Below, piece by piece: positions 4,201 through 32,796 of a stretch of DNA of 37,020 nucleotides; position 1 is the first letter of the stretch, and every line of letters begins with the position of its first letter. The translations under genes and the position numbers were made by a program. The stretch comes from a virus. The stretch lies in IMG/VR virus record IMGVR_UViG_3300025286_000053, positions 1 to 37,020 of that record; one strand, written 5' to 3'. The notes below the pieces were generated by a model. It was not told the DNA's origin. It did no database searches and saw only the letters and a list, made by a program, of their open reading frames with translations.

Positions 4201-4842
4201 ATGTTGACATCTGTCATAGTTGATGGCTTTGGCGGTCATAATAAGCTAAGTATTCAGCCGGAGGGTACAATAAACGCTGTTATCCATCCGCACCCGCCAC
4301 GGGGTGAACAGCTTAGCGCCGATCCATTCCGCCAATACTTTACAAATGACGGTACAAGTTCAGGGTCAATAGATTGGGCTGTGGATGGTTCTAGTACATC
4401 GGTAGAGTTTTACATAAGTGCTAGTCCAGATGTTGACATATATATTAAATCAATATCAATACTTATCGGCGATGGCGGCAATCCGGCTCTTAATAAATAC
4501 GGTGCTTTAACTGCTCTCACAAATGGCGTTGAATGGCGTTTGAGTAGCCAGGATACCGGCGATTATATTTTACATGACGGTATAAAATCTAACTTAGAGT
4601 TTATCCGGTTAGCAGTGGATACAGCAGGAATAGGAACCGGGACAGATGCATTTCTTGCTGATGTATCCGGCGGTGGTACTGAAAAAAGTTATCTTCCAAC
4701 AATAGACCTTGCTGAGACATTTGGTTTAAGATATGGCATAAGATTGCGAAAAGGAACCACTGACAAAATGGTGTGGAAGATAAACGACGATTTAACAGGC
4801 TTAACGACACACAATGCAATTGCATACGGGATTAGAATATAA
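4201..4842 (+). CDS. Probable virion surface protein
   Basis: A 213-residue beta-rich protein starting at an ATG immediately after the previous stop. It contains the early motif HPHPPRGEQLSADPFRQYF and many Gly/Ser/Thr/Asp residues, with no catalytic motif and no signal peptide. It lies in the same run as the 195-residue protein and the BppU-like protein and overlaps the next ATG by one base (TAATG). Translational coupling suggests stoichiometric production with its neighbours. It may be a fibre-associated or capsid-surface protein; the exact role is unknown. Confidence 0.55.
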   Translation: MLTSVIVDGFGGHNKLSIQPEGTINAVIHPHPPRGEQLSADPFRQYFTNDGTSSGSIDWAVDGSSTSVEFYISASPDVDIYIKSISILIGDGGNPALNKYGALTALTNGVEWRLSSQDTGDYILHDGIKSNLEFIRLAVDTAGIGTGTDAFLADVSGGGTEKSYLPTIDLAETFGLRYGIRLRKGTTDKMVWKINDDLTGLTTHNAIAYGIRI

Positions 4843-5207
4843 TGGATATAATAAACTTAACAAGACAAAACAAAACTCAAGCCATAGTGGGAGAGGATTA
4901 TTACCAGCAATTTGTGTATAAAGATCCAGACGGGGCCGCCATAGATATATCAAGCGGTTACACTGTGGCCGGTGTCATAAAGGACTCTGGCGGGTCAACC
5001 TTGGTTGCACTACCTCAGACTGCAAGCCTTGCGACAACCGGCATACATTCTGGAGGGTTTGCGAATGGTGTTATTACTATATTTCTAGACTCTTCAGATG
5101 TAGCTGCCGCCGGGGACAATACCTACACTATTAAGATTACTGATGCAGACCCGAAAACCACACCTATATTTGGTGGAAACTTCCAATTCTGGACTAATCC
5201 ATATTGA
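4842..5207 (+). CDS. BppU-like immunoglobulin-fold structural protein
   Basis: 121 residues with the layout of the N-terminal domain found in phage baseplate-upper/fibre proteins: an opening 'GEDYYQQFVYKDPDG', a 'DISSGYTVAGVIKD' strand pair, then 'GVITIFLDSSDVAAAGDNTYTIKITDAD' and a final strand. A related pattern occurs in the N-terminal half of the fibre protein at 17082-18731. It probably attaches the following adhesin gene product to the particle. Its stop overlaps the TTG start of the next gene (TTGA). Confidence 0.55.
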   Translation: MDIINLTRQNKTQAIVGEDYYQQFVYKDPDGAAIDISSGYTVAGVIKDSGGSTLVALPQTASLATTGIHSGGFANGVITIFLDSSDVAAAGDNTYTIKITDADPKTTPIFGGNFQFWTNPY

Positions 5208-6199
5208 ATAAAGTATCTTTAAAACAGGGGAATGGCGTCTCAGTTATTGATCCTAATACAGTATCCGTAAAACAGGGTAACAGGGTTGAGCTTGCCCCAG
5301 AATTAGTGTCCTATGCTGGCGGTCCCAACTTAGCCTTCCAGTTTACAGTAAATGCCACTGATGGGACTTTTGCTATTCCTACAGTTTCAGATGGTACGTA
5401 TAATTGCAATATCACTTATGATTTAGGTGGCGCTAATGAGGTTACCTACTCTGGAATAACCACATATAATGATGCTAATATGTCCCATACATTTCCCGGA
5501 GGTGTTGGAACTTATACAATAAGCATTACCGGCACCTTTACCGGTTGGCGCTTTAATAATGGCGGCGATAAGCTTAAGATGTTAGCAATTACTAATTGGG
5601 GTGACGGCGTACTGACTATTATACACACGGGGGCATTTTTTGGCTGCACTTCTTTAACAATAACCGCAGATGGCGCACAAAAGCCGACATTTACAGGCGC
5701 ACTATATGCTATTCAATTTATGCGGGATTGTTCATCGGTAACAACTGTACCGGGAATGGAAGATTGGGTCTGGTCTACGTGCACCTCAGCTTACCAGTGT
5801 TGGCGCGTGGCTGCTAGTTTCAATCAAGCCTTACCGGATATGCCATTAATAACTAGAATAGATGACGGTATCAGAAACACAATTTTCAATCAGCCCTTCC
5901 CCTCAATGCCACTTGTGACAAATATTAATACCGCCCTAACATCTGTTAGCGCCTTTGATCAAGATTTAACATCACTACCCTGGGCCACAATCACCACAGC
6001 CACAAACTTTATGTTACTTGCTGACGGCATAAGTACCGTCAATTACGATGCCTTGTTATTACACATGGACTCTGAAGTTGTTAGTAGTTTAACTGTTCAC
6101 TTTGGATCAGCGACATATACAGGCGGCGGAGCCGTTGCCACTGCAAGAGCGAATTTAGTTAGTCGTGGCTGTGTTATAACTGATGGAGGAATTGCGTGA
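5204..6199 (+). CDS. BspA-like leucine-rich repeat adhesin, probable receptor-binding protein
   Basis: 331 residues, TTG start overlapping the previous stop by four bases. After a short N-terminus, residues about 45-115 form a PKD/Ig-like beta domain ending in TYTISITGTFTGWRFNNGGD, which normally precedes BspA-type repeats. Repeats follow with the features AFFGCTSLT, FNQALPDMP, FNQPFPSMP and FDQDLTSLP, similar to the DUF285/BspA 'FNQDIS.W' repeat. The C-terminus (SATYTGGGAVATARANLVSRG...TDGG) matches the usual cap of this family. Such proteins are surface adhesins in bacteria and fibres in phages, so a host-binding role is likely. Confidence 0.7.
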   Translation: MNKVSLKQGNGVSVIDPNTVSVKQGNRVELAPELVSYAGGPNLAFQFTVNATDGTFAIPTVSDGTYNCNITYDLGGANEVTYSGITTYNDANMSHTFPGGVGTYTISITGTFTGWRFNNGGDKLKMLAITNWGDGVLTIIHTGAFFGCTSLTITADGAQKPTFTGALYAIQFMRDCSSVTTVPGMEDWVWSTCTSAYQCWRVAASFNQALPDMPLITRIDDGIRNTIFNQPFPSMPLVTNINTALTSVSAFDQDLTSLPWATITTATNFMLLADGISTVNYDALLLHMDSEVVSSLTVHFGSATYTGGGAVATARANLVSRGCVITDGGIA

Positions 6200-6492
6200 T
6201 TGAGTTAAAGCCGGAATCTATTAAATACGTAATGATATTAAATGCCGAAACAGACCGGGCTGACTTTACTTGTGTTTTAAACAATCAGACGTTAACTTGT
6301 GGGCAACCATGTATAATATATGCGGATGATCACGATGCAGTTTTAGATTGTATTTACTCTGAATATACTACAACTGTTTTGAGCGGCATGCACATTGAGG
6401 TATCTGGGACGAAGCGACTCGAGGTAGATATCAGGAATAAGATAAACATTAAAGTTGCTGCGGGTGATATTTCGACATCCGGAACATTTTAA
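6196..6492 (+). CDS. Hypothetical protein at end of surface module
   Basis: 98 residues, GTG start overlapping the adhesin stop (GTGA). It contains five cysteines (one in FTCVLN, two in LTCGQPC, one in DCIYSE), unusual for this structural region, and a beta-rich pattern. No family is recognised. As the last gene before a terminator and directly coupled to the adhesin, it may be a fibre chaperone or a second small surface protein. Confidence 0.5.
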   Translation: MIELKPESIKYVMILNAETDRADFTCVLNNQTLTCGQPCIIYADDHDAVLDCIYSEYTTTVLSGMHIEVSGTKRLEVDIRNKINIKVAAGDISTSGTF

Positions 6493-6508
6493 ATCTTCAG
6501 TAGCATCA

Positions 6509-6554
6509 AGCGATGGAAGCATCGCTCTCTTATTAGGGTTGAGCCTTTTTTTTT
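6509..6554 (+). terminator. Probable terminator of the surface-protein module
   Basis: AGCGATG (6509-6515) and CATCGCT (6520-6526) form a perfect 7-bp stem with a GAAG loop. Further on, a short AGG/CCT stem leads into a run of nine T at 6546-6554. The T-run is not directly under the strong stem, so the strong hairpin may be a pause and the second, weaker stem the release point. The position, just after the stop at 6492 and before the portal operon, fits termination. Confidence 0.5.
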
Positions 6555-6585
6555 ATTTCATTTTTCAAAAAAATACAAGATAATA

Positions 6586-6640
6586 TGGCGTTTTACGCCA
6601 ATGCCTAAAGCGGGGGTTGGTGTTTTACGCCTTCTTTTTA
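6586..6640 (+). terminator. Two tandem near-identical hairpins (GGYGTTTTACGCC)
   Basis: TGGCG-TTTTA-CGCCA at 6586-6600 is a perfect 5-bp stem with a TTTTA loop. GGTG-TTTTA-CGCC at 6619-6631 repeats the same stem-loop with one G-U pair and is followed by TTCTTTTTA. The second could act as an intrinsic terminator. The repeated loop sequence could instead be a protein-binding or RNA-processing site. Bases 6493-6713 contain no gene. Confidence 0.4.
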
Positions 6641-6713
6641 CTTGCAATATGCTTTTTTGGGGCAATTGTATTATTATAAGACACTTATTTTGCAAAATAG
6701 GACAATCCAATTT

Positions 6714-7892
6714 ATGGCTGTACTTAAGAGAGGCGGAAATATTGACCGCTACCAGATAGATGTATCCCTAGATTTAACACCGCTTGAAGTAAAGAATGTT
6801 TTTAACTCTTCAAACGGCGGAAACGTTAAAAGACAATCAAAACTAGCCAATGAACTAACCGAGAAAGATGCTGCTATATCCCAGGCGTGGAATGTGAGAG
6901 TTTCTAGTATTGCTGCTTGCCCGTGGGAGATTATTGGCAATAAGGCAGAGTTTATTGATCGTTCCCTAAGATCGATTAACCCAAGTTTTGACAGCGGGTT
7001 AGTATCCTTTGGTAAATGGATCAATTATCTGCAATCGGCGGTATTACATGGTTTCGCAGTATCACAGGCTGATTATCAGAATGCCGGTGCCGTTATTCAT
7101 GGTTTTAAATGTTACTCACACTCACTTTTTTCATATGTTGACTCAGAGTTGCCGTATTACTCAGACAAGAACGATGGCAAGAAAAAAAAGCCGATTTTTA
7201 GCCCCAGGTGGATTTATCACACCGCTACCAACGCTCGGGACATGGAGCCATTGCGGGCTGGTCTCGTTCGCCCTCTTGCTTATTTATATGCTTTCCGTAG
7301 ACATGTTTTAATAGAGTATTTAAGGGGTCTTGAAAAGTATGGGGTCCCATATATTCAAGCAAATGTTTCGCCTTGGTTATGGGAAGACAGTGCCGAGAAA
7401 ACCAAAATAGAGAACGCTTTGGGGAATATGACCTATGACGGTTATATGGTTTGCCCGGCGAATAATGTCGAATTGAACTTTCCGACCGCAAACAGCGGTT
7501 TTGATGTAATGGTTTTTGACCAGTATTTGAAATACTCAGAAAAACAGATTTTTAGGTTAATCCTCGGTCAGGACTCAACGAGCAGCGCCGACAACTCTAA
7601 TAGAAGTACCGCTCAAGTCCATAACCTTGTTAGGAAGGATATCCTGGAGGCTGATGTAAAAGCAGTGGAAGAGACGGTTAACAATCAGATAATTAAGCCA
7701 CTCATGGAAGCTAATTTTGGTAGTGCCGAGGCTCCTAGATTTAGGTTTATTACAAAAGGAATTGATGAGTTGAATATGTTTGCCAATTTCGTAAACACAC
7801 TATCAGACGGGGGATATGAATTGGATAGTTTGGATGATTTTGAGAAAAAGACTGGTTTAAAAATCGTAAAAAAAGAGGCTGAGAATGATTAA
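6714..7892 (+). CDS. Portal protein, Mu gp29-like (DUF935)
   Basis: 392 residues that form the dodecameric portal ring through which DNA is packaged. The recognisable family section is the C-terminal half: YDGYMVCPANNVELNF, then DQYLKYSEKQIFRLILGQDSTSS, a helical 'VHNLVRKDILEADVKAVEETVNNQIIKPL', matching the DUF935/Mu gp29 portal group. The frame is open to TTG 6642, but ATG 6714 is the first ATG and gives a normal N-terminus; only a weak AGGA lies upstream. The gene overlaps the protease gene by 8 bases. A separate MuF/SPP1 gp7-like minor head gene, often found next, is absent here. Confidence 0.85.
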   Translation: MAVLKRGGNIDRYQIDVSLDLTPLEVKNVFNSSNGGNVKRQSKLANELTEKDAAISQAWNVRVSSIAACPWEIIGNKAEFIDRSLRSINPSFDSGLVSFGKWINYLQSAVLHGFAVSQADYQNAGAVIHGFKCYSHSLFSYVDSELPYYSDKNDGKKKKPIFSPRWIYHTATNARDMEPLRAGLVRPLAYLYAFRRHVLIEYLRGLEKYGVPYIQANVSPWLWEDSAEKTKIENALGNMTYDGYMVCPANNVELNFPTANSGFDVMVFDQYLKYSEKQIFRLILGQDSTSSADNSNRSTAQVHNLVRKDILEADVKAVEETVNNQIIKPLMEANFGSAEAPRFRFITKGIDELNMFANFVNTLSDGGYELDSLDDFEKKTGLKIVKKEAEND

Positions 7893-8910
7893 TATTTTTG
7901 GAGTTGTCGGTGAAGATGTGAGGGCGTCTGATATCCTGCAGCAAATACAAGCCGAGGGCGGCGATTCTGTAGAGGTGGTTATTATGTCACCTGGAGGGTC
8001 AGTCATTGAGGGGTTAGCAATCTATGACGCTTTGAGAGCAACGGGCAAAACAATTATCACTAAAGCTATGGGCCAAGCTGCCTCAATTGCGTCTATTATT
8101 TTTATGGCTGGCGATGTCCGTGAAGTGGCCGACAATGCCGAGATTATGATACATAATGCTTGGGGTGTGGTTGCTGGCAATAAGCACCAGTTGGGCGAGG
8201 CTATGGAGCGTATGAATGAAATTGATAATAGGTTGATCAATGTCTATGTTGACCGCGCCGGAATGCCCGCAGAGGATGTAAGGGCGATGCTTGATGATGA
8301 AACTTTTATGTCAGCGGATGAGGCCATATCTAAGGGCTTTGCAACTGATAAAATCAACGCAATGGCACTAGTGGCCATGTATAACAAAAAAGAGGAGCCT
8401 ATAAACATGGCTGACGATAAACAGGCTGAGGAAATCAGCGAAAAAGAACAGGGCTTGTTTGCTAGATTTACAGCATGGCTCAAGAATGAAAATCCTACTG
8501 AAGAAGCAGAAACTGTTTCTAAAGAAGAGTATGACGCACTTAGAGTAGAGCTTGATTTACTTAAGTCTGCCGAGTCTGATAGACTCGAGGCTGAGGCATT
8601 GTCACTTGCCGAGGAAAAGGCAGAAGATGCGGAGCAGCAGGATAAAAACACATTACTTTTCCAGGCGATGCAGGATAATAAAATCCTCCTGGCCGATGCC
8701 ATTAAACTATCTAAAAAACCACTAGATGAAGTAGTCAGCTTCGTTGCTGAGTTGGGTAAAAATGCTACTAAGCGTGGAAATGCGGGCGAGCCTGAGGGCG
8801 AAGTTACAAATTCTATGTATGAAGAGTATCAGACCCTGCAAGGCGCGGACCGTGTGGCTTTTTTCAATGAAAACAGAGAAGAAATAATCAAACAAGCTAA
8901 GGAGTCATAA
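7885..8910 (+). CDS. ClpP-type head maturation protease fused to scaffold
   Basis: 341 residues. The first 165 are a ClpP-like (S14) serine protease: MSPGGSV strand, nucleophile S67 in GQAASIAS, H90 in MIHNAWG, and an acid in the LDDETFMSADEA segment. This type cleaves scaffold and head proteins during prohead maturation. Residues 175-341 are acidic, Glu/Ala-rich and coiled-coil-like, as expected for a scaffold. An internal ATG with a strong Shine-Dalgarno sequence at codon 175 suggests separate scaffold synthesis (see nested entry). The gene sits between portal and major capsid gene, the usual order, and overlaps the portal stop by 8 bases. Confidence 0.87.
   Translation: MINIFGVVGEDVRASDILQQIQAEGGDSVEVVIMSPGGSVIEGLAIYDALRATGKTIITKAMGQAASIASIIFMAGDVREVADNAEIMIHNAWGVVAGNKHQLGEAMERMNEIDNRLINVYVDRAGMPAEDVRAMLDDETFMSADEAISKGFATDKINAMALVAMYNKKEEPINMADDKQAEEISEKEQGLFARFTAWLKNENPTEEAETVSKEEYDALRVELDLLKSAESDRLEAEALSLAEEKAEDAEQQDKNTLLFQAMQDNKILLADAIKLSKKPLDEVVSFVAELGKNATKRGNAGEPEGEVTNSMYEEYQTLQGADRVAFFNENREEIIKQAKES
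8407..8910 (+). CDS. Nested in-frame scaffolding protein (internal start)
   Basis: ATG 8407 lies in frame inside the protease gene and is preceded by AGAGGAG at 8391-8397 with 9-bp spacing, the strongest ribosome binding site in the area. It would give a 167-residue acidic coiled-coil protein beginning MADDKQAEEISEKEQG. This mirrors lambda C/Nu3, where the scaffold is made from an internal start in the protease gene. The site is plain in the sequence; use as scaffold is inferred from the lambda-type precedent and the composition. Confidence 0.65.
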   Translation: MADDKQAEEISEKEQGLFARFTAWLKNENPTEEAETVSKEEYDALRVELDLLKSAESDRLEAEALSLAEEKAEDAEQQDKNTLLFQAMQDNKILLADAIKLSKKPLDEVVSFVAELGKNATKRGNAGEPEGEVTNSMYEEYQTLQGADRVAFFNENREEIIKQAKES

Positions 8911-8912
8911 AA

Positions 8913-9821
8913 ATGGCCTCAACTACTGCAAACCTAGACATTAACATCTTGGCGGACATCTGCCTTGGTGCTCTAATGATCAAACTTGACGAAATGTCCG
9001 CTTTTGCTTTCGGCGTTCGCTCAAACGTTAACCTTAATGATAGCGTAAAAGTACTTGTAGAATCTTATACCAAGGATGCTGCAGCCTGGAACGTTTCCTC
9101 CAATAACTATGAGACTTCAGATGATGACGTCACCACTGGTGTGGACATCACCCTAGATCAAAAAATTAAGAAGACTGCTTTCGTTGAAGAAGACGATTTC
9201 AGTAAAATTGATATCAGTAAAAAGCTTACGGGCCTTGGTCACTCTTGTGCTTATCAGATGCTGCTTGCTAATTACGATACACTGATTGCCGCTTCCTATA
9301 CAGAAACAGAGGAAGTTGTTGGCGCTGCATCAACTTTCGACTGGGATGCTGTTGTTGACCTTGAAGTCGTTGCTGATGATGCTGAATTTGGCATGAATCG
9401 CTACATGGTTGTAGCTAATACCTACATGGCCAACCTTAAGAAAGATGGTATCCTTGTCGCTAACAAAGCAGCCAATGTTGATCCGGGTCTATCTGCTAAC
9501 CGCTTTGATATCATAGGCGGATTTAACAGCATGGGTTCAACTGTTATTAAGAATATCTCTGGTACTGCCTCTACTGAGAATCTGGTTGGTTTTATTACTG
9601 ATGGTTCCGCAATGGGCGTTGGCCTTGGCACTCCAGCCTTCACTGGTTCAAGTGATGGTGGTGTTGAAGTTGCCACTTCTATTGATCCTAAGACAGGAAT
9701 TGGCATCCAGCTCCGTAGACACTATAGCCGTCCAACTGGCCGCTGGTATCTCAATGCAGTAATCCTTTATGGGACTGCCGTTGTTAGATCTGGTTCACTT
9801 GTTAGACTTGTATCTGCTTAA
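8913..9821 (+). CDS. Major capsid protein
   Basis: 302 residues, with AAGGAG at 8899-8904 8 bp before the ATG and the gene placed directly after the protease-scaffold gene. The protein has the usual traits of a major head subunit: even composition, few cysteines, a mid-protein region with NRYMVVANTYMANLKKD (the P-domain helix and strand pattern), and a C-terminal TGIGIQLRRHYSRPTGRWYLNAVILYG segment. Codon use is clearly optimised (many C-ending codons, a long stretch without rare codons), consistent with high expression. The HK97 fold is assumed, not visible. Confidence 0.83.
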   Translation: MASTTANLDINILADICLGALMIKLDEMSAFAFGVRSNVNLNDSVKVLVESYTKDAAAWNVSSNNYETSDDDVTTGVDITLDQKIKKTAFVEEDDFSKIDISKKLTGLGHSCAYQMLLANYDTLIAASYTETEEVVGAASTFDWDAVVDLEVVADDAEFGMNRYMVVANTYMANLKKDGILVANKAANVDPGLSANRFDIIGGFNSMGSTVIKNISGTASTENLVGFITDGSAMGVGLGTPAFTGSSDGGVEVATSIDPKTGIGIQLRRHYSRPTGRWYLNAVILYGTAVVRSGSLVRLVSA

Positions 9822-9885
9822 TTAATTGCACCATAGGCGGGGAGATCGCTTCAAACCGTCTAATGGCTTAAAAAGGATTATAAAA

Positions 9886-10350
9886 ATGAGAAACGCAGTT
9901 GTTACAGCCAAAGACCCCAAAGAGGGTTGGCTCACCATGTATAACGGTGAAAACATTGCTGAGGCAAAAGCATGCTATAGAGGTCTTAAGCTTGACATGA
10001 AAGACTATCTTCAAATAAGTATCTTTTTGGCGCCGAATCAGAGACGAGTAAGCCGTCTTGGTCGGGTTTCTGAAGCAGAGCTCAAAGAGCAAGCGAAGAT
10101 TAAGCGCGAAAAGGAAAAGCACATTGCTAAGGAACTTAAGAAGAAGGCTGAAGCTAAAGCCAAGGCTGAAGAAGCGGCCGAGAAAGAAGCGGCTGAAGTT
10201 GCAAAAGCACATGTTGAAAGACGCGCCAAAGAAAAGAAAGAGCAGTTGAAAATGAAAGCAGCTAATGCGAAAGCCAAGGCTGATAAAGAAGCGGCCAAGC
10301 ATTCAGATATTGCTGATGCCGTGGTTGAGAGAATAAGTAAGAAAAAGTAA
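9886..10350 (+). CDS. Lys/Ala/Glu-rich coiled-coil protein after the capsid gene
   Basis: 154 residues. Residues 1-60 form a small domain (AKDPKEGWLTMYNGENIAEAKACYRGL), and residues about 65-145 are an almost uninterrupted K/A/E coiled coil. The frame is open to 9826, but ATG 9886 with AAGGA at 9873-9877 is the supported start. Its place between the capsid protein and DUF1320-like connector genes suggests a head-related protein such as a head fibre or an assembly factor; no family is recognised. Translation in other frames of this repetitive stretch is a composition artefact. Confidence 0.6.
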   Translation: MRNAVVTAKDPKEGWLTMYNGENIAEAKACYRGLKLDMKDYLQISIFLAPNQRRVSRLGRVSEAELKEQAKIKREKEKHIAKELKKKAEAKAKAEEAAEKEAAEVAKAHVERRAKEKKEQLKMKAANAKAKADKEAAKHSDIADAVVERISKKK

Positions 10351-22313: not shown

Positions 22314-22499
22314 TTAGCCGTAGCCGTCGCCGTTGTCGTAGCCGTAGCCGTTGCCGCTGCCGTAGCTGCAGCCGCCGCCGTCGCCGTTGCCGTAGCCGTA
22401 GCCGTCGCCGTAGCCGTTGCCTTTGCCAGCGGCTTTGCCGTCGCCACAGCCGTCGCCAGTCTCTAACTCATCATCAAAATATGGATCAGCCATTTTCAT
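22314..22499 (-). CDS. Gly-rich repeat protein (GYGDGYG type)
   Basis: 61 residues: a 20-residue acidic head (MKMADPYFDDELETGDG) and then a run of Gly alternating with Tyr, Asp, Asn, Ser or Cys (GNGYGDGYGYGNGDGGG). In DNA this is a run of GCCGTN hexamers read from the other strand. ATG 22499 overlaps the end of the DUF6948-like gene by 14 bases. The second ATG, 22493, is also possible. Gly-rich tails of this kind occur at the C-terminus of DUF6948-like proteins in other phages as far as I recall, so this may be a detached tail. Function unknown. Confidence 0.6.
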   Translation of the reverse strand: MKMADPYFDDELETGDGCGDGKAAGKGNGYGDGYGYGNGDGGGCSYGSGNGYGYDNGDGYG

Positions 22500-29233: not shown

Positions 29234-29362
29234 ATGAATAAAACCAAGACAACCTGGCTTCAAGTCCGCCTAACGCCACAAGAGCGCGAATGGCTCAAGC
29301 AGAAAGCGAAGAAAGCCGAAATGACGGTAAGCGAGTATATTAGAGCTAAGGCGGGGTTATAG
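29234..29362 (+). CDS. Ribbon-helix-helix/Arc-MobC-type small protein
   Basis: 42 residues, with AAAGGAG before ATG 29234. The strand WLQVRLTPQEREWLKQK and second helix 'AEMTVSEYIRAKAG' form the RHH fold of Arc/MobC-type DNA-binding proteins. It is the first gene after the strong promoter and could repress it. The stop overlaps the GTG start of the methyltransferase (TAGTG). Confidence 0.68.
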   Translation: MNKTKTTWLQVRLTPQEREWLKQKAKKAEMTVSEYIRAKAGL

Positions 29363-30246
29363 TGTATGAGTTGGCAATGTTTGAGCTTGCCTTGTTTGCC
29401 GGAGCAGGAGGGGGAATACTCGGCGGGCACTTATGCGGCTTCACTTGCGTTGGAGCTGTTGAAATCGAGGAATACCCCAGAGAAGTCCTTAAGCAGCGAC
29501 AAAGAGACAGAATCCTGCCAAAATTCCCAATATGGGACGATGTCTGCACCTTCAGAATCGACAACCCCGAATGCAGAGAGTATATCGAACTATTACGAGA
29601 ACACAGAGAAAACCTTATCATTTCGGGTGGATTTCCTTGCCAAGATATATCATCAGCAGGTAAAGGCGCAGGGATTACAAAAGATACTCGATCCGGATTA
29701 TGGTTTGAATTTGCCCGTATCATTGACGAAATACGACCCGCAAGAGTCCTTGTGGAAAACTCACCAATGCTTACTTCTCGGGGGCTTGGAGTCGTTCTCG
29801 GAGACCTGGCCGAAATGGGGTATGATGCAAGATGGGGAGTGTTGGGCGCTGTCGATGTCGGAGCTCCTCATAAGCGTGAGAGAATCTGGTTACTCTGTTC
29901 CAACTCCAACATGCAATCCAGATTTACCGAACAAGAACGCCAACACAAACGGCCCGAAAAACTTAATGGATGTAGCAGAGGGAAAATGGCAACATCTTTT
30001 GCCAACTCCAGGGACAACAGGAATGTCGAACGGGTCAGGAAACTGCGAGAAGGTGAACAAGCTTCATGCGGAGGGGCTGGTCTCGGAGGAGGAGAGGAAG
30101 TCTATGAGAGCAGGGAATGGTGGACAACTGAACCCAAACTGGGTCGAGTGGCTAATGGGGTGGCCAAGCGGGTGGACCGACTTAAGGCCATTGGGAATGG
30201 ACAGATCCCTCAATGTGTATTTGCAGCATGGAGGACATTAAGATGA
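29362..30246 (+). CDS. C5-cytosine DNA methyltransferase, Dcm-like
   Basis: 294 residues, GTG start with GCGGGG upstream (ATG at 29377 is an alternative). Motif I LFAGAGGG (11-18), motif IV GGFPCQ (89-94, catalytic C93), motif VI EN (132-133), motif VIII RERIWL (172-177) and motif X GNGQIPQ (278-284) are complete. The target-recognition region (about 185-255) is short and Arg/Asn/Ser-rich. It methylates cytosine, probably protecting phage DNA from host restriction. A second frame (29366-30241) runs through nearly the entire gene with family-like motifs of its own. No matching restriction endonuclease is seen. Confidence 0.88.
   Translation: MYELAMFELALFAGAGGGILGGHLCGFTCVGAVEIEEYPREVLKQRQRDRILPKFPIWDDVCTFRIDNPECREYIELLREHRENLIISGGFPCQDISSAGKGAGITKDTRSGLWFEFARIIDEIRPARVLVENSPMLTSRGLGVVLGDLAEMGYDARWGVLGAVDVGAPHKRERIWLLCSNSNMQSRFTEQERQHKRPEKLNGCSRGKMATSFANSRDNRNVERVRKLREGEQASCGGAGLGGGEEVYESREWWTTEPKLGRVANGVAKRVDRLKAIGNGQIPQCVFAAWRTLR
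29366..30241 (+). CDS. Overlapping +1-frame ORF with own family-like motifs
   Basis: This 291-residue frame begins at ATG 29366, four bases after the methyltransferase GTG, shares its GGGG ribosome site and ends five bases before its stop. Segments ESLWKTHQCLLL (126-137), SFSETWPKWGMMQDGECWAL (143-162), SVPTPTCNP and LNPNWVEWLMGWPSGWTDL (255-273) match, from memory, proteins widely annotated in phages near Dcm-type methyltransferases (WRTSQTCLL, SETWPRSGMMRNG, LNP.WVEWLMG.P.GWT). Its conserved points coincide with methyltransferase motifs VI and X in the other frame (WKT with VEN; GWTDLRPLGM with VDRLKAIGN). Either both proteins are made, or this frame is passively conserved. Confidence 0.45.
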   Translation: MSWQCLSLPCLPEQEGEYSAGTYAASLALELLKSRNTPEKSLSSDKETESCQNSQYGTMSAPSESTTPNAESISNYYENTEKTLSFRVDFLAKIYHQQVKAQGLQKILDPDYGLNLPVSLTKYDPQESLWKTHQCLLLGGLESFSETWPKWGMMQDGECWALSMSELLISVRESGYSVPTPTCNPDLPNKNANTNGPKNLMDVAEGKWQHLLPTPGTTGMSNGSGNCEKVNKLHAEGLVSEEERKSMRAGNGGQLNPNWVEWLMGWPSGWTDLRPLGMDRSLNVYLQHGGH

Positions 30247-30749: not shown

Positions 30750-30877
30750 CCTGTCAAAACTCGCTATGCACTCGGCCGGAACTGAAGAGAAAGCCGGAGC
30801 TCGATAAAATGGGATTGTTGTTTTACTGGTGCCCGAAATGCGAAAAAACTTACACGGAAAAGGAGAAAAGCAAATGA
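30746..30877 (+). CDS. Small zinc-ribbon protein
   Basis: 43 residues from ATG 30746 overlapping the previous stop (ATGA). C3 and C8 (TCQNSLC) and the pair in YWCPKCEKTY form a four-cysteine zinc ribbon. The tail is basic. It overlaps the next gene by four bases (ATGA). A DNA/RNA or protein-binding adaptor role is likely but undefined. Confidence 0.55.
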   Translation: MTCQNSLCTRPELKRKPELDKMGLLFYWCPKCEKTYTEKEKSK

Positions 30878-32796
30878 AAAAGAAAGATACGCTAACGCAA
30901 GAGGAGCTGGACTTAATGCCAGTTGTGAGAGAAGAATGGCTTGACCGACTATTGAACCCGGTTGGGATTGACCGAGAAAAATCAACAAAATGGGTTGAAT
31001 GGCTGTATGATTTTGGTGGATTGAAAAAACCTGCAATATTATTTGTCGATTCGCCAATGGCTGGGCAGTATACTTGTAATTTATTATCTAAACTTAATTT
31101 AGCTCAGGTTTTGGATCAGGTTAGGGATCAGGTTGGGGATCAGGTTGAGGATCAGATTATAACTCAGGTTGGGGATCAGGTTGGGGATCAGGTTGGGGAT
31201 CAGGTTGGGGCTCAGGTTGGGGCTCAGGTTAGGAATCAGGTTGTGCATCAGGTTGATCGTCAGGTTAGGGATCAGGTTAGGAATCAGATTTGGAATCAGG
31301 TTGGGGATCAGGTTTGGCGTCAGGTTTGGAATCAGGTTGGGAATCAGGTTTGGAATCAGGTTGAGGATCAGATTGAGGATCAGATTGATCGTCAGGTTGA
31401 GGATCAGGTTGAGACTCAGGTTGGGGTTCAGGTTGGGGTTCAGGTTTGGAATCAGGTTTGGAATCAGATTAGGGATCAGGTTGCGGATCAGGTTGAGGGT
31501 CAGGTTAGGGATCAGATTGAGGATCAGGTTGAGGATCAGGTTAGGAATCAGATTTGGAATAAGGTTGGGGATCAGGTTAGGGCTCAGGTTGAGGATCAGG
31601 TTTGGACTCAGGTTTTTGATCAGGTTATGACTCAGGTTGGGGATCAGGTTGGGGATCAGGTTAGGGCTCAGGTTGAGGATCAGATTGAGGATCAGATTGA
31701 GGATCAGGTTTGGGTTCAGGTTATGGATCAGGTTAGGCGTCAGATTGGGGTTCAGGTTGGGGTTCAGGTTTGGAATCAGGTTGAGGATCAGATTGGGGTT
31801 CAGGTTGGGGATCAGGTTAGGAATCAGATTTGGAATCAGGTTGGGGATCAGGTTTGGCGTCAGGTTTGGGATCAGATTGGGGTTCAGGTTGGGAATCAGG
31901 TTAGGAATCAGGTTGTGAGTCAGGTTGATCGTCAGGTTAGGGATCAGGTTGAGGATCAGGTTGTGAATCAGATTTGGAATCAGGTTAGGAATCAGGTTGT
32001 GGATCAGGTTGGGGTTCAGGTTAGGAATCAGGTTGATCGTCAGATTTGGAATCAGGTTGAGGATCAGGTTGGGGATCAGGTTAGGAATCAGGTTGGGGAT
32101 CAGGTTGGGGATCAGGTTTGGGATCAGGAATTAAAACACTACGGGACCGCTTGGAGGGCATCATGTTTTGATTTTAGCTGGTTAGCCTTTTATGAATATT
32201 TTCAGAGGGTAGGTATAGAGTATAAAGTCAGTAAAGAGTTTAATGAGTTCTTGAAATTTAAAGACTTAGGTATATTCGGAATGATACAGTTAGATGGATT
32301 ATGTGTCGTTTATGGTATGCCATCCAGTATACAAAGGGATTCTGATAATAACCTTCACTCTGATGATGGCTACGCTATTCAGTGGCCTGATGGTTATGGC
32401 ATTCACTTCATGCACGGAACCGCTGTACCTGAATATTTAGTAACAACCCCGGCAGATGAGTTAGATGTTAAACAGGTGCTGGCAGAGGGGAATGTAGATA
32501 TCAGAATTGAGGGTATGCGCAAACTGGGGACTGAAAAACTAGCGAAACATGGTAAGTTAATTGATAGCTATAAGAATTATTCAAAAAAAGATCATTACTG
32601 GTGGTATGCTTCAGAGTATGAGCTATACGACCTAAATTCAATCTATGAGGGTTTAGGGTTATGGCTTAAGATGAAACACCAAACTATAGAGCAATATTGC
32701 GTGGAGGGAGTTGAGAACTGTAAAACAATTCAAGACTGTTTAAACTATCGCAATAACAAGAATATGGATCAATACGAAACAATCAACATTAAGTAA
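30874..32796 (+). CDS. DUF6745-like protein with 85 tetrapeptide (QVxx) repeats
   Basis: 640 residues from ATG 30874 (AAAGGAG upstream, ATGA overlap). Residues 1-77 contain the opening EEWLDRLLNP...AILFVDSPMAGQYTCNLL. Residues 78-417 are 85 four-residue units of the form Q-[V/I]-x-x, where x-x favours G-D, W-N, R-N, E-D. Residues 418-640 contain YGTAWRASCFDFSWLAFYEYF, LHSDDGYAIQWPDGYGIHFMHG and VPEYLVTTP, which recall the C-terminal half of DUF6745 proteins: '.H...GPA..YPDG...Y..HG..VPE' with an 'N...R' element. I recall shorter QVxx runs in that family. Function is unknown; the protein is probably a long fibrous or helical spacer joining two globular ends. Confidence 0.72.
   Translation: MKKKDTLTQEELDLMPVVREEWLDRLLNPVGIDREKSTKWVEWLYDFGGLKKPAILFVDSPMAGQYTCNLLSKLNLAQVLDQVRDQVGDQVEDQIITQVGDQVGDQVGDQVGAQVGAQVRNQVVHQVDRQVRDQVRNQIWNQVGDQVWRQVWNQVGNQVWNQVEDQIEDQIDRQVEDQVETQVGVQVGVQVWNQVWNQIRDQVADQVEGQVRDQIEDQVEDQVRNQIWNKVGDQVRAQVEDQVWTQVFDQVMTQVGDQVGDQVRAQVEDQIEDQIEDQVWVQVMDQVRRQIGVQVGVQVWNQVEDQIGVQVGDQVRNQIWNQVGDQVWRQVWDQIGVQVGNQVRNQVVSQVDRQVRDQVEDQVVNQIWNQVRNQVVDQVGVQVRNQVDRQIWNQVEDQVGDQVRNQVGDQVGDQVWDQELKHYGTAWRASCFDFSWLAFYEYFQRVGIEYKVSKEFNEFLKFKDLGIFGMIQLDGLCVVYGMPSSIQRDSDNNLHSDDGYAIQWPDGYGIHFMHGTAVPEYLVTTPADELDVKQVLAEGNVDIRIEGMRKLGTEKLAKHGKLIDSYKNYSKKDHYWWYASEYELYDLNSIYEGLGLWLKMKHQTIEQYCVEGVENCKTIQDCLNYRNNKNMDQYETINIK
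31105..32124 (+). repeat. 12-bp tandem minisatellite, 85 phased units
   Basis: Eighty-five consecutive units of consensus CAGGTTGGGGAT occupy exactly 1020 bp with no frame slip. Variation is concentrated at the third and fourth codon. About 42 GATC sites arise, 38 from GAT-CAG junctions and four from GTT-GAT-CGT units. Because the unit is a multiple of three, other frames stay open as well (repeated GIRL or RFGIRL-type peptides); these are artefacts. Blocks such as VRNQIWNQVGDQVWRQVW recur (units 14-19 and 59-64), showing larger internal duplications. Confidence 0.97.

Follow-up and report, generated by a model that had tools for sequence, protein, structure and literature searches.

A DUF6745-type phage protein with a rearranging tetrapeptide array as a candidate tuning element

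The array gene and its surroundings

The window analysed here is an entire virus record (IMGVR_UViG_3300025286_000053) and comprises 37,020 bases. Its plus strand encodes a protein of 640 amino acids at positions 30874 to 32796, which consists of an N-terminal domain, an array of 85 QVxx tetrapeptides and a DUF6745-type C-terminal domain; an alternative, longer start is possible at the GTG codon at 30829, which would yield 655 amino acids. The N-terminal domain (30874-31104, plus strand; 77 amino acids) is homologous across the family described below. It is followed by the tandem array (31105-32124, plus strand), 1020 bases that are divided into exactly 85 units of 12 bases with the pattern CAG RTT NNG NNT and that encode residues 78 to 417 with zero slips; 33 unit types are found among them. 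Tandem Repeats Finder reports 85.4 copies with a period of 12, 0% indels and a score of 1021, which together with the exact unit count confirms the original prediction of 85 perfectly phased QVxx units, and this regularity is far beyond chance. The first residue of the unit is Gln in 84 of 85 units and Lys once, and the second is Val (70) or Ile (15). The third position is more diverse, with 24 Gly, 16 Arg, 16 Trp and 15 Glu besides others, as is the fourth, with 38 Asp, 21 Asn, 8 Val and 7 Arg besides others. At the DNA level, unit bases 2, 3, 5, 6 and 12 are invariant; a single unit deviates at base 1, and 79 of 85 have G at base 9. Appreciable variation is thereby confined to bases 4, 7, 8, 10 and 11. 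As a by-product of the 12-base period, a second forward frame over the array (RLGI) is rather open as well, at 31169-31630 and 31637-31918.

The C-terminal domain (32125-32793, plus strand) matches the Pfam family DUF6745 (PF20530) at 32302-32538. With 29.0 bits for the C-terminal part alone against a curated cut-off of 27, the window sequence is a divergent member, and its membership is borderline, since the genome search gave 28.3 bits and a scan of the whole protein 26.7 bits, just under the cut-off. The conserved core of the domain, taken as W..FY near the start plus the invariant columns LH, A, G and N, was compared in an alignment with eight relatives, in which the residues Y, L, H, A, G and N of the window protein fall in columns without variation. 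It also shares the complete order of an N-terminal domain with [FW]xxSP, a [SQ][VLI]xx array and DUF6745. The predicted resemblance to DUF6745 and the placement of the array between two domains are thus borne out. A search with the N-terminal domain sequence alone returned a near-isolate as the sole match. Pfam matches of the protein to YpjP and Trigger_C are repeat artefacts, and its PADLOC matches are weak and located in the repeat.

AlphaFold, run on input from which rows of the phage collection had been left out, predicts confident folds for the N- and C-terminal domains and long helices for the array, with pLDDT values mostly between 35 and 70. The suggestion that the array forms one continuous fibrous structure is weakly backed by this model: extended helices are predicted, their confidence is low. 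A fold search with the model of a relative (L166) gave no PDB match below an E-value of 0.5, the best VIA-align Z being 4.0, and a viral structure library returned only other DUF6745 proteins and fragments. These searches assigned no fold, although the protein may well have a known one, and no function was named by the fold and defence library searches.

The array gene is flanked by two C5-cytosine methylase genes in a helicase/methylase region of the window, and the genes around family members, mostly recombination, replication, integrase and unknown genes, include RecE/RecT and methyltransferase genes. This neighbourhood fits an accessory early role, and the RecE/RecT genes near some relatives could aid reshuffling of the arrays. 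A virion-attached fibre or adhesin, in which a variable array alters host binding, would be in line with the frequent variation of phage tail proteins and with one tandem set of array genes (L161, see below) that adjoins long baseplate- or tail-looking proteins. However, structural families are absent from the commonest neighbours of the family and the window protein has no match to a tail or virion family, which makes this explanation very unlikely.

Three further features of the window were noted. Two ORFs of about 290 amino acids (29362-30246 and 29366-30241) overlap almost fully in different frames; one of them is a C5-cytosine methylase (PF00145), and the other also reads protein-like and ends with NPNWVEWLMGWPSGWTDL... 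At 22315-22427, just before a block of minus-strand genes, the 6-bp unit TAGCCG is repeated about 18 times. The large terminase (792-2240) shares about 33% identity with its counterparts in Pseudomonas phage B3 and in Microcystis and Leptolyngbya phages.

The array family and its composition rules

Searches with the C-terminal domain and one search with the DNA pattern of the array yielded 78 distinct related ORFs, mostly on viral contigs and a few on bacterial or archaeal assemblies; the pattern search of viral contigs returned mostly unrelated low-complexity sequence. Members from isolate or prophage genomes were found in a Mycobacterium abscessus prophage and a Manatee Spring siphovirus, and further members in Microcystis phages. 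The common layout is an N-terminal domain (consensus IEKLTPEQ..W..IGLST.PADR..AE.AI..MY..AGL..P.IVWCGSP), a [SQ][VLI]xx array and DUF6745, and relatives with a matching N-terminal domain carry SVxx, SLxx, QLxx or QVxx arrays, whereas the DUF6745 members of Microcystis phages are array-free. The same QVxx array is also borne by a second, unrelated protein frame (L247, L248, L250, L251, L252 and L253) with the N-terminal sequence MCQGIPIFANNKKALYGK... and the C-terminal sequence SYWAIKVVLGLPIKHWFFDFLKLGIMIVFVQGKAKVFGKHGKYLGEY. A literature search for experiments on any DUF6745 protein found none.

Complete arrays of the family span 0 to 151 units, and the 85 units of the window are the second longest array of 48; the array is long but, contrary to its earlier description as extreme, not exceptional for the family. 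Short-read metagenome assemblies are the source of most arrays, and several contigs stop within the array, which renders those copy numbers approximate; despite these limits, the prophage and isolate-phage sets agree. A fused array with a frameshift or stop was not found among the family arrays, in agreement with the earlier assumption that the array is under selection as protein. The sole broken ORF of the family (L198) is interrupted by a stop in the C-terminal domain. In L001, the unusual frame at the start stems from an inverted contig end: positions 1-80 repeat part of the contig's own array in inverted orientation, which is probably an artefact of assembly or amplification.

The composition of the arrays was determined for a set of 60 arrays with 1885 units. 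Position 3 is mostly Arg (597), Gly (563) or Trp (431), followed by Glu (95), and position 4 is mostly Asp (852) or Ala (445), followed by Asn (207), Gly (125) and Ser (108). Third codon positions are nearly constant within arrays; 54 of 60 arrays have exactly three letters at base 7, and 51 have exactly two at base 11. In 53 of the 54 three-letter arrays, the letters at base 7 are A/G/T or C/G/T, precisely the sets that give Gly, Arg and Trp (p about 3e-15); this value treats the arrays as independent, and they are partly related, yet they span 20 backbones of codons 1 and 2. All three residues are present at position 3 in 59 of 60 arrays. The one array with NGC in place of NGG at position 3 lies in L222 (858-1946), where Arg, Cys and Ser replace Arg, Trp and Gly.

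Arg is encoded by AGG in 36 arrays and by CGG in 18, hardly ever by both, and a single codon is used in 365 of 407 combinations of amino acid and column. Since the trio is kept although the Arg codon differs, and since each array uses one codon, the Gly/Arg/Trp alphabet is held by selection, and the units of one array descend from few founders. Nonsynonymous exceeds synonymous variation in 54 of 60 arrays (mean pN 0.173 vs mean pS 0.065). Furthermore, 32 codon backbones occur among the 60 arrays, for which the C-terminal domain tree implies at least 39 changes, and arrays have thus been rebuilt repeatedly; L187 and L188, for instance, are close on this tree, yet use different serine codon families.

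The functional element might instead be the DNA repeat, as a set of binding sites or a recombination platform, or the array might be a functionless selfish expansion, and the great regularity of the 12-bp DNA and the largely open additional frame are compatible with either. Across lineages, however, the DNA consensus differs wholly (CAG GTT, AGC GTC, TCC GTG, CAG CTC and others), but the amino-acid pattern persists, and neither a stop nor a frameshift was seen in a fused array. The differing backbones rule out a constraint at the DNA level, and the explanation as a whole is highly improbable.

The order of units looks close to random in most arrays. Periodicity of unit types over lags 1 to 18 is at most weak, with the largest z of 2.8 at position 4 for lags 2, 4 and 6, and a clear helical or solenoid signal was not found. 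The near-random order, this absence of a strong periodic signal and the long, low-confidence helices predicted by AlphaFold would all suit a pure molecular ruler, a stiff, possibly helical spacer that acts through its length and phase, with nearly neutral variable residues and a unit number that drifts by slippage and recombination. Neutral residues, however, would not give Gly, Arg and Trp at position 3 in 59 of 60 arrays over 20 backbones, and the separate array genes described in the next section cannot space the two domains of a DUF6745 protein. We consider a role as a ruler only rather unlikely.

Block rearrangement and separate array genes

The window shares 13.9 kb at about 99.4% identity with the near-isolate IMGVR_UViG_3300008217_000095 (locus L146). 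The first 63 array units of the window (31105-31860, plus strand) are the same base for base in L146, and the last 22 units (31861-32124, plus strand) correspond to a stretch in which the same unit types stand in another order: of the 21 three-unit words in the L146 tail, 16 are missing from the window array, and no new unit type occurs. The L146 contig ends inside the array, which has at least 86 units, and the isolate comparison of the window thus consists of one incomplete contig; the fork between the two arrays is located at a 62-base internal repeat and could itself reflect either recombination or an assembly jump. The M. abscessus prophages L013, L226 and L227 have flanks of 99.4-99.8% identity and arrays of 46, 19 and at least 21 units, which are related by block insertions and deletions. 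L147 and L148 (nearest flanks about 97% identical) contain 30 and 35 units in an almost unrelated order, L148 and the G004 record are one base change apart, and L151 and L152 are identical throughout. Block changes brought no new unit types where this was checked. In near-isolates whose flanks are 97-99.7% identical, block changes thus alter both the order and the number of units, and the anticipated variation of copy number between phage isolates is indeed seen in near-identical phages with different unit numbers. Point hypermutation at bases 7 and 11 was rejected as the main driver of variation, because the 63 units shared by the window and L146 are unchanged despite a flank difference of about 0.45% (P about 0.03 for no change at this divergence), because the L146 tail changed without a new unit type and because one codon is used per amino acid in each array.

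In some phages, the array is encoded by separate genes. Among DUF6745 lineages that were found through the domain, four of five array-free ones (L009, L190, L189 and L197; the Microcystis phages are the exception) have separate array genes nearby, whereas none was found in the 454 kb of sequence flanking 61 fused loci (p about 7e-6); if L211 with three fused units and no separate array is added, the count becomes four of six (p about 2e-5). In L190, seven small array genes with ATGA overlaps follow DUF6745 directly (6603-8159), and in L189 the first of two small array genes (6618-6898) overlaps the DUF6745 stop. L009 contains five small array genes before DUF6745 (4568-5643) and two after it (6601-6938), and a six-unit stretch lies about 470 bases past DUF6745 in L197. 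A further chain of small array genes is found by the array-free DUF6745 gene of L160 (12071-12832). Within the chains of L190, L009, L189 and L160, the small genes have common first and last residues, differing unit order and 4-base ATGA overlaps. G019 and G023 also have separate array genes beside DUF6745; both were found via their arrays and are hence biased. A guessed DNA pattern for small array genes gave no matches. In the Microcystis phages (LMM01 group), the DUF6745 gene itself lacks an array and none lies less than about 7 kb away, and the domain can therefore act without one.

The largest set is present in L161 (G020:C1; reverse strand, reverse-complement coordinates 6208-9987) and comprises at least 14 small array genes for proteins of 67-86 amino acids. 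Most of these genes are ATGA-coupled, and their products share a conserved leader MKTKQKQKVKVWDRA and an IRNHK-like tail around a variable QVxx middle. The set stands between long baseplate- or tail-looking genes in a record without DUF6745.

Taken together, these loci show an association of the array with DUF6745 both in cis and in trans, and this arrangement is new within the open-access literature searched. The original description of the array was incomplete: the unit and its phase stood, but the few variable codon positions with their Gly/Arg/Trp alphabet, the block shuffles and the separate neighbouring genes had been missed.

It is tempting to read the arrays as a rewritable combinatorial polymer of about six unit types, in which unit order, not just length, would encode the host or prophage target that is bound, either inside the DUF6745 protein or in libraries of coupled tandem small genes acting on it in trans; the order would be read out by a polymeric or repetitive target. 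Support for such a polymer comes from the nearly free combination, in many arrays, of three position-3 letters with two position-4 letters, from the completely different order in close relatives and from tandem sets in which 2 to 14 or more coupled array genes each have their own unit order. On the other hand, the order is not conserved, and neutral shuffling predicts random order equally; this explanation is unlikely.

A candidate tuning element for counter-defence

The array protein had been put forward as a candidate for an undescribed phage system, but it is not entirely undescribed, since the pattern of 12-bp units with fixed and variable bases was reported in 2007 for gp54 of mycobacteriophage Tweety (PMC2884959). 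Like the DUF6745 arrays, the array of gp54 (also Che8 gp57 and PMC gp51; PHROG 3416) stands between two unique termini and consists of 12-bp units in a fixed frame, with bases 1-6, 9 and 12 invariant and bases 7, 8, 10 and 11 variable. Position 3 is Gly, Trp or Gln, with Arg and Glu in gp54 relatives. In the isolate phages Tweety, DeadP and Taj, both termini are 100% identical at the DNA level and the unit number differs (49, 39 and 31). In contrast to QVxx, the repeat of gp54 is AAxx with Ser or Tyr at position 4, and its N- and C-terminal parts are unrelated to DUF6745 proteins: hhalign of gp54 against the DUF6745 profile A2 gave a probability of 0.1%, the N-termini gave no BLASTP alignment and no Pfam or PHROG family is common to both. 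A further difference is that no separate array genes were found in the flanks of gp54. The two proteins are thus related in kind, not family; the shared features are the 12-bp units, the fixed third codon positions, the variation at bases 7, 8, 10 and 11 and a unit number that varies between identical flanks.

According to two reviews (PMC9262239, PMC8549241), Tweety mutants that escape the prophage defences of Phrann and MichelleMyBell carry more or fewer repeats, gp54 is termed a tunable counter-defence, and domain juxtaposition is suggested as the reason for the escape. A pure ruler would likewise find support in these mutants.

Variable region 2 of bbp36 of the Bordetella phage BMP-1 is, as cited in PMC2884959, also an in-frame repeat with an isolate-dependent number, but with 24-bp repeats in 9-20 copies, and it is set beside the window gene by description only. 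The targets of diversity-generating retroelements likewise vary at certain codon positions while the remainder is fixed; these systems differ from the arrays, in which variation consists of unit shuffling with one codon per amino acid per array. A reverse transcriptase or template repeat was not recognised among the window ORFs read.

Our preferred explanation, which we propose tentatively and with somewhat less than even confidence, is that the window gene encodes an accessory, non-virion DUF6745 protein whose array is a quickly rebuilt tuning element, most likely directed at a defence system. The sequences show that each array is a string of few unit types with Gly, Arg or Trp at position 3 and mostly Asp versus a small residue at position 4. 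Through recombination between units, whole blocks come, go or change places while the flanking domains stay intact and in frame, and in some phages the array is housed in one to many small genes adjoining the DUF6745 gene. We infer that the array determines the manner in which a target is met by the N- and C-terminal domains, or by the DUF6745 protein together with its small partners, and that it does so through its total length, its phase and its exposed residues (Trp/Arg/Gly and Asp/Ala). Retuning would occur by unequal exchange, which always preserves the reading frame. The target would most likely be a defence encoded by the host or a prophage, by analogy with the unrelated gp54; as gp54 is not homologous to DUF6745 proteins, this functional step rests on analogy. 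The comparative evidence shows selection at the protein level and reshuffling in blocks; a role in counter-defence appears most likely for the DUF6745 array protein, and the gene of the window is probably an adjustable part that is retuned against hosts or rival phages.

A Pfam family of unknown function that is frequent in uncultured phages may thereby be tied to a described, poorly understood kind of tunable counter-defence. The rules found here, namely fixed third bases, a Gly/Arg/Trp alphabet, block shuffling and forms in cis and in trans, make the role of repeat number and order testable, and operons with separate array genes provide a natural test of the interaction between array and domain.
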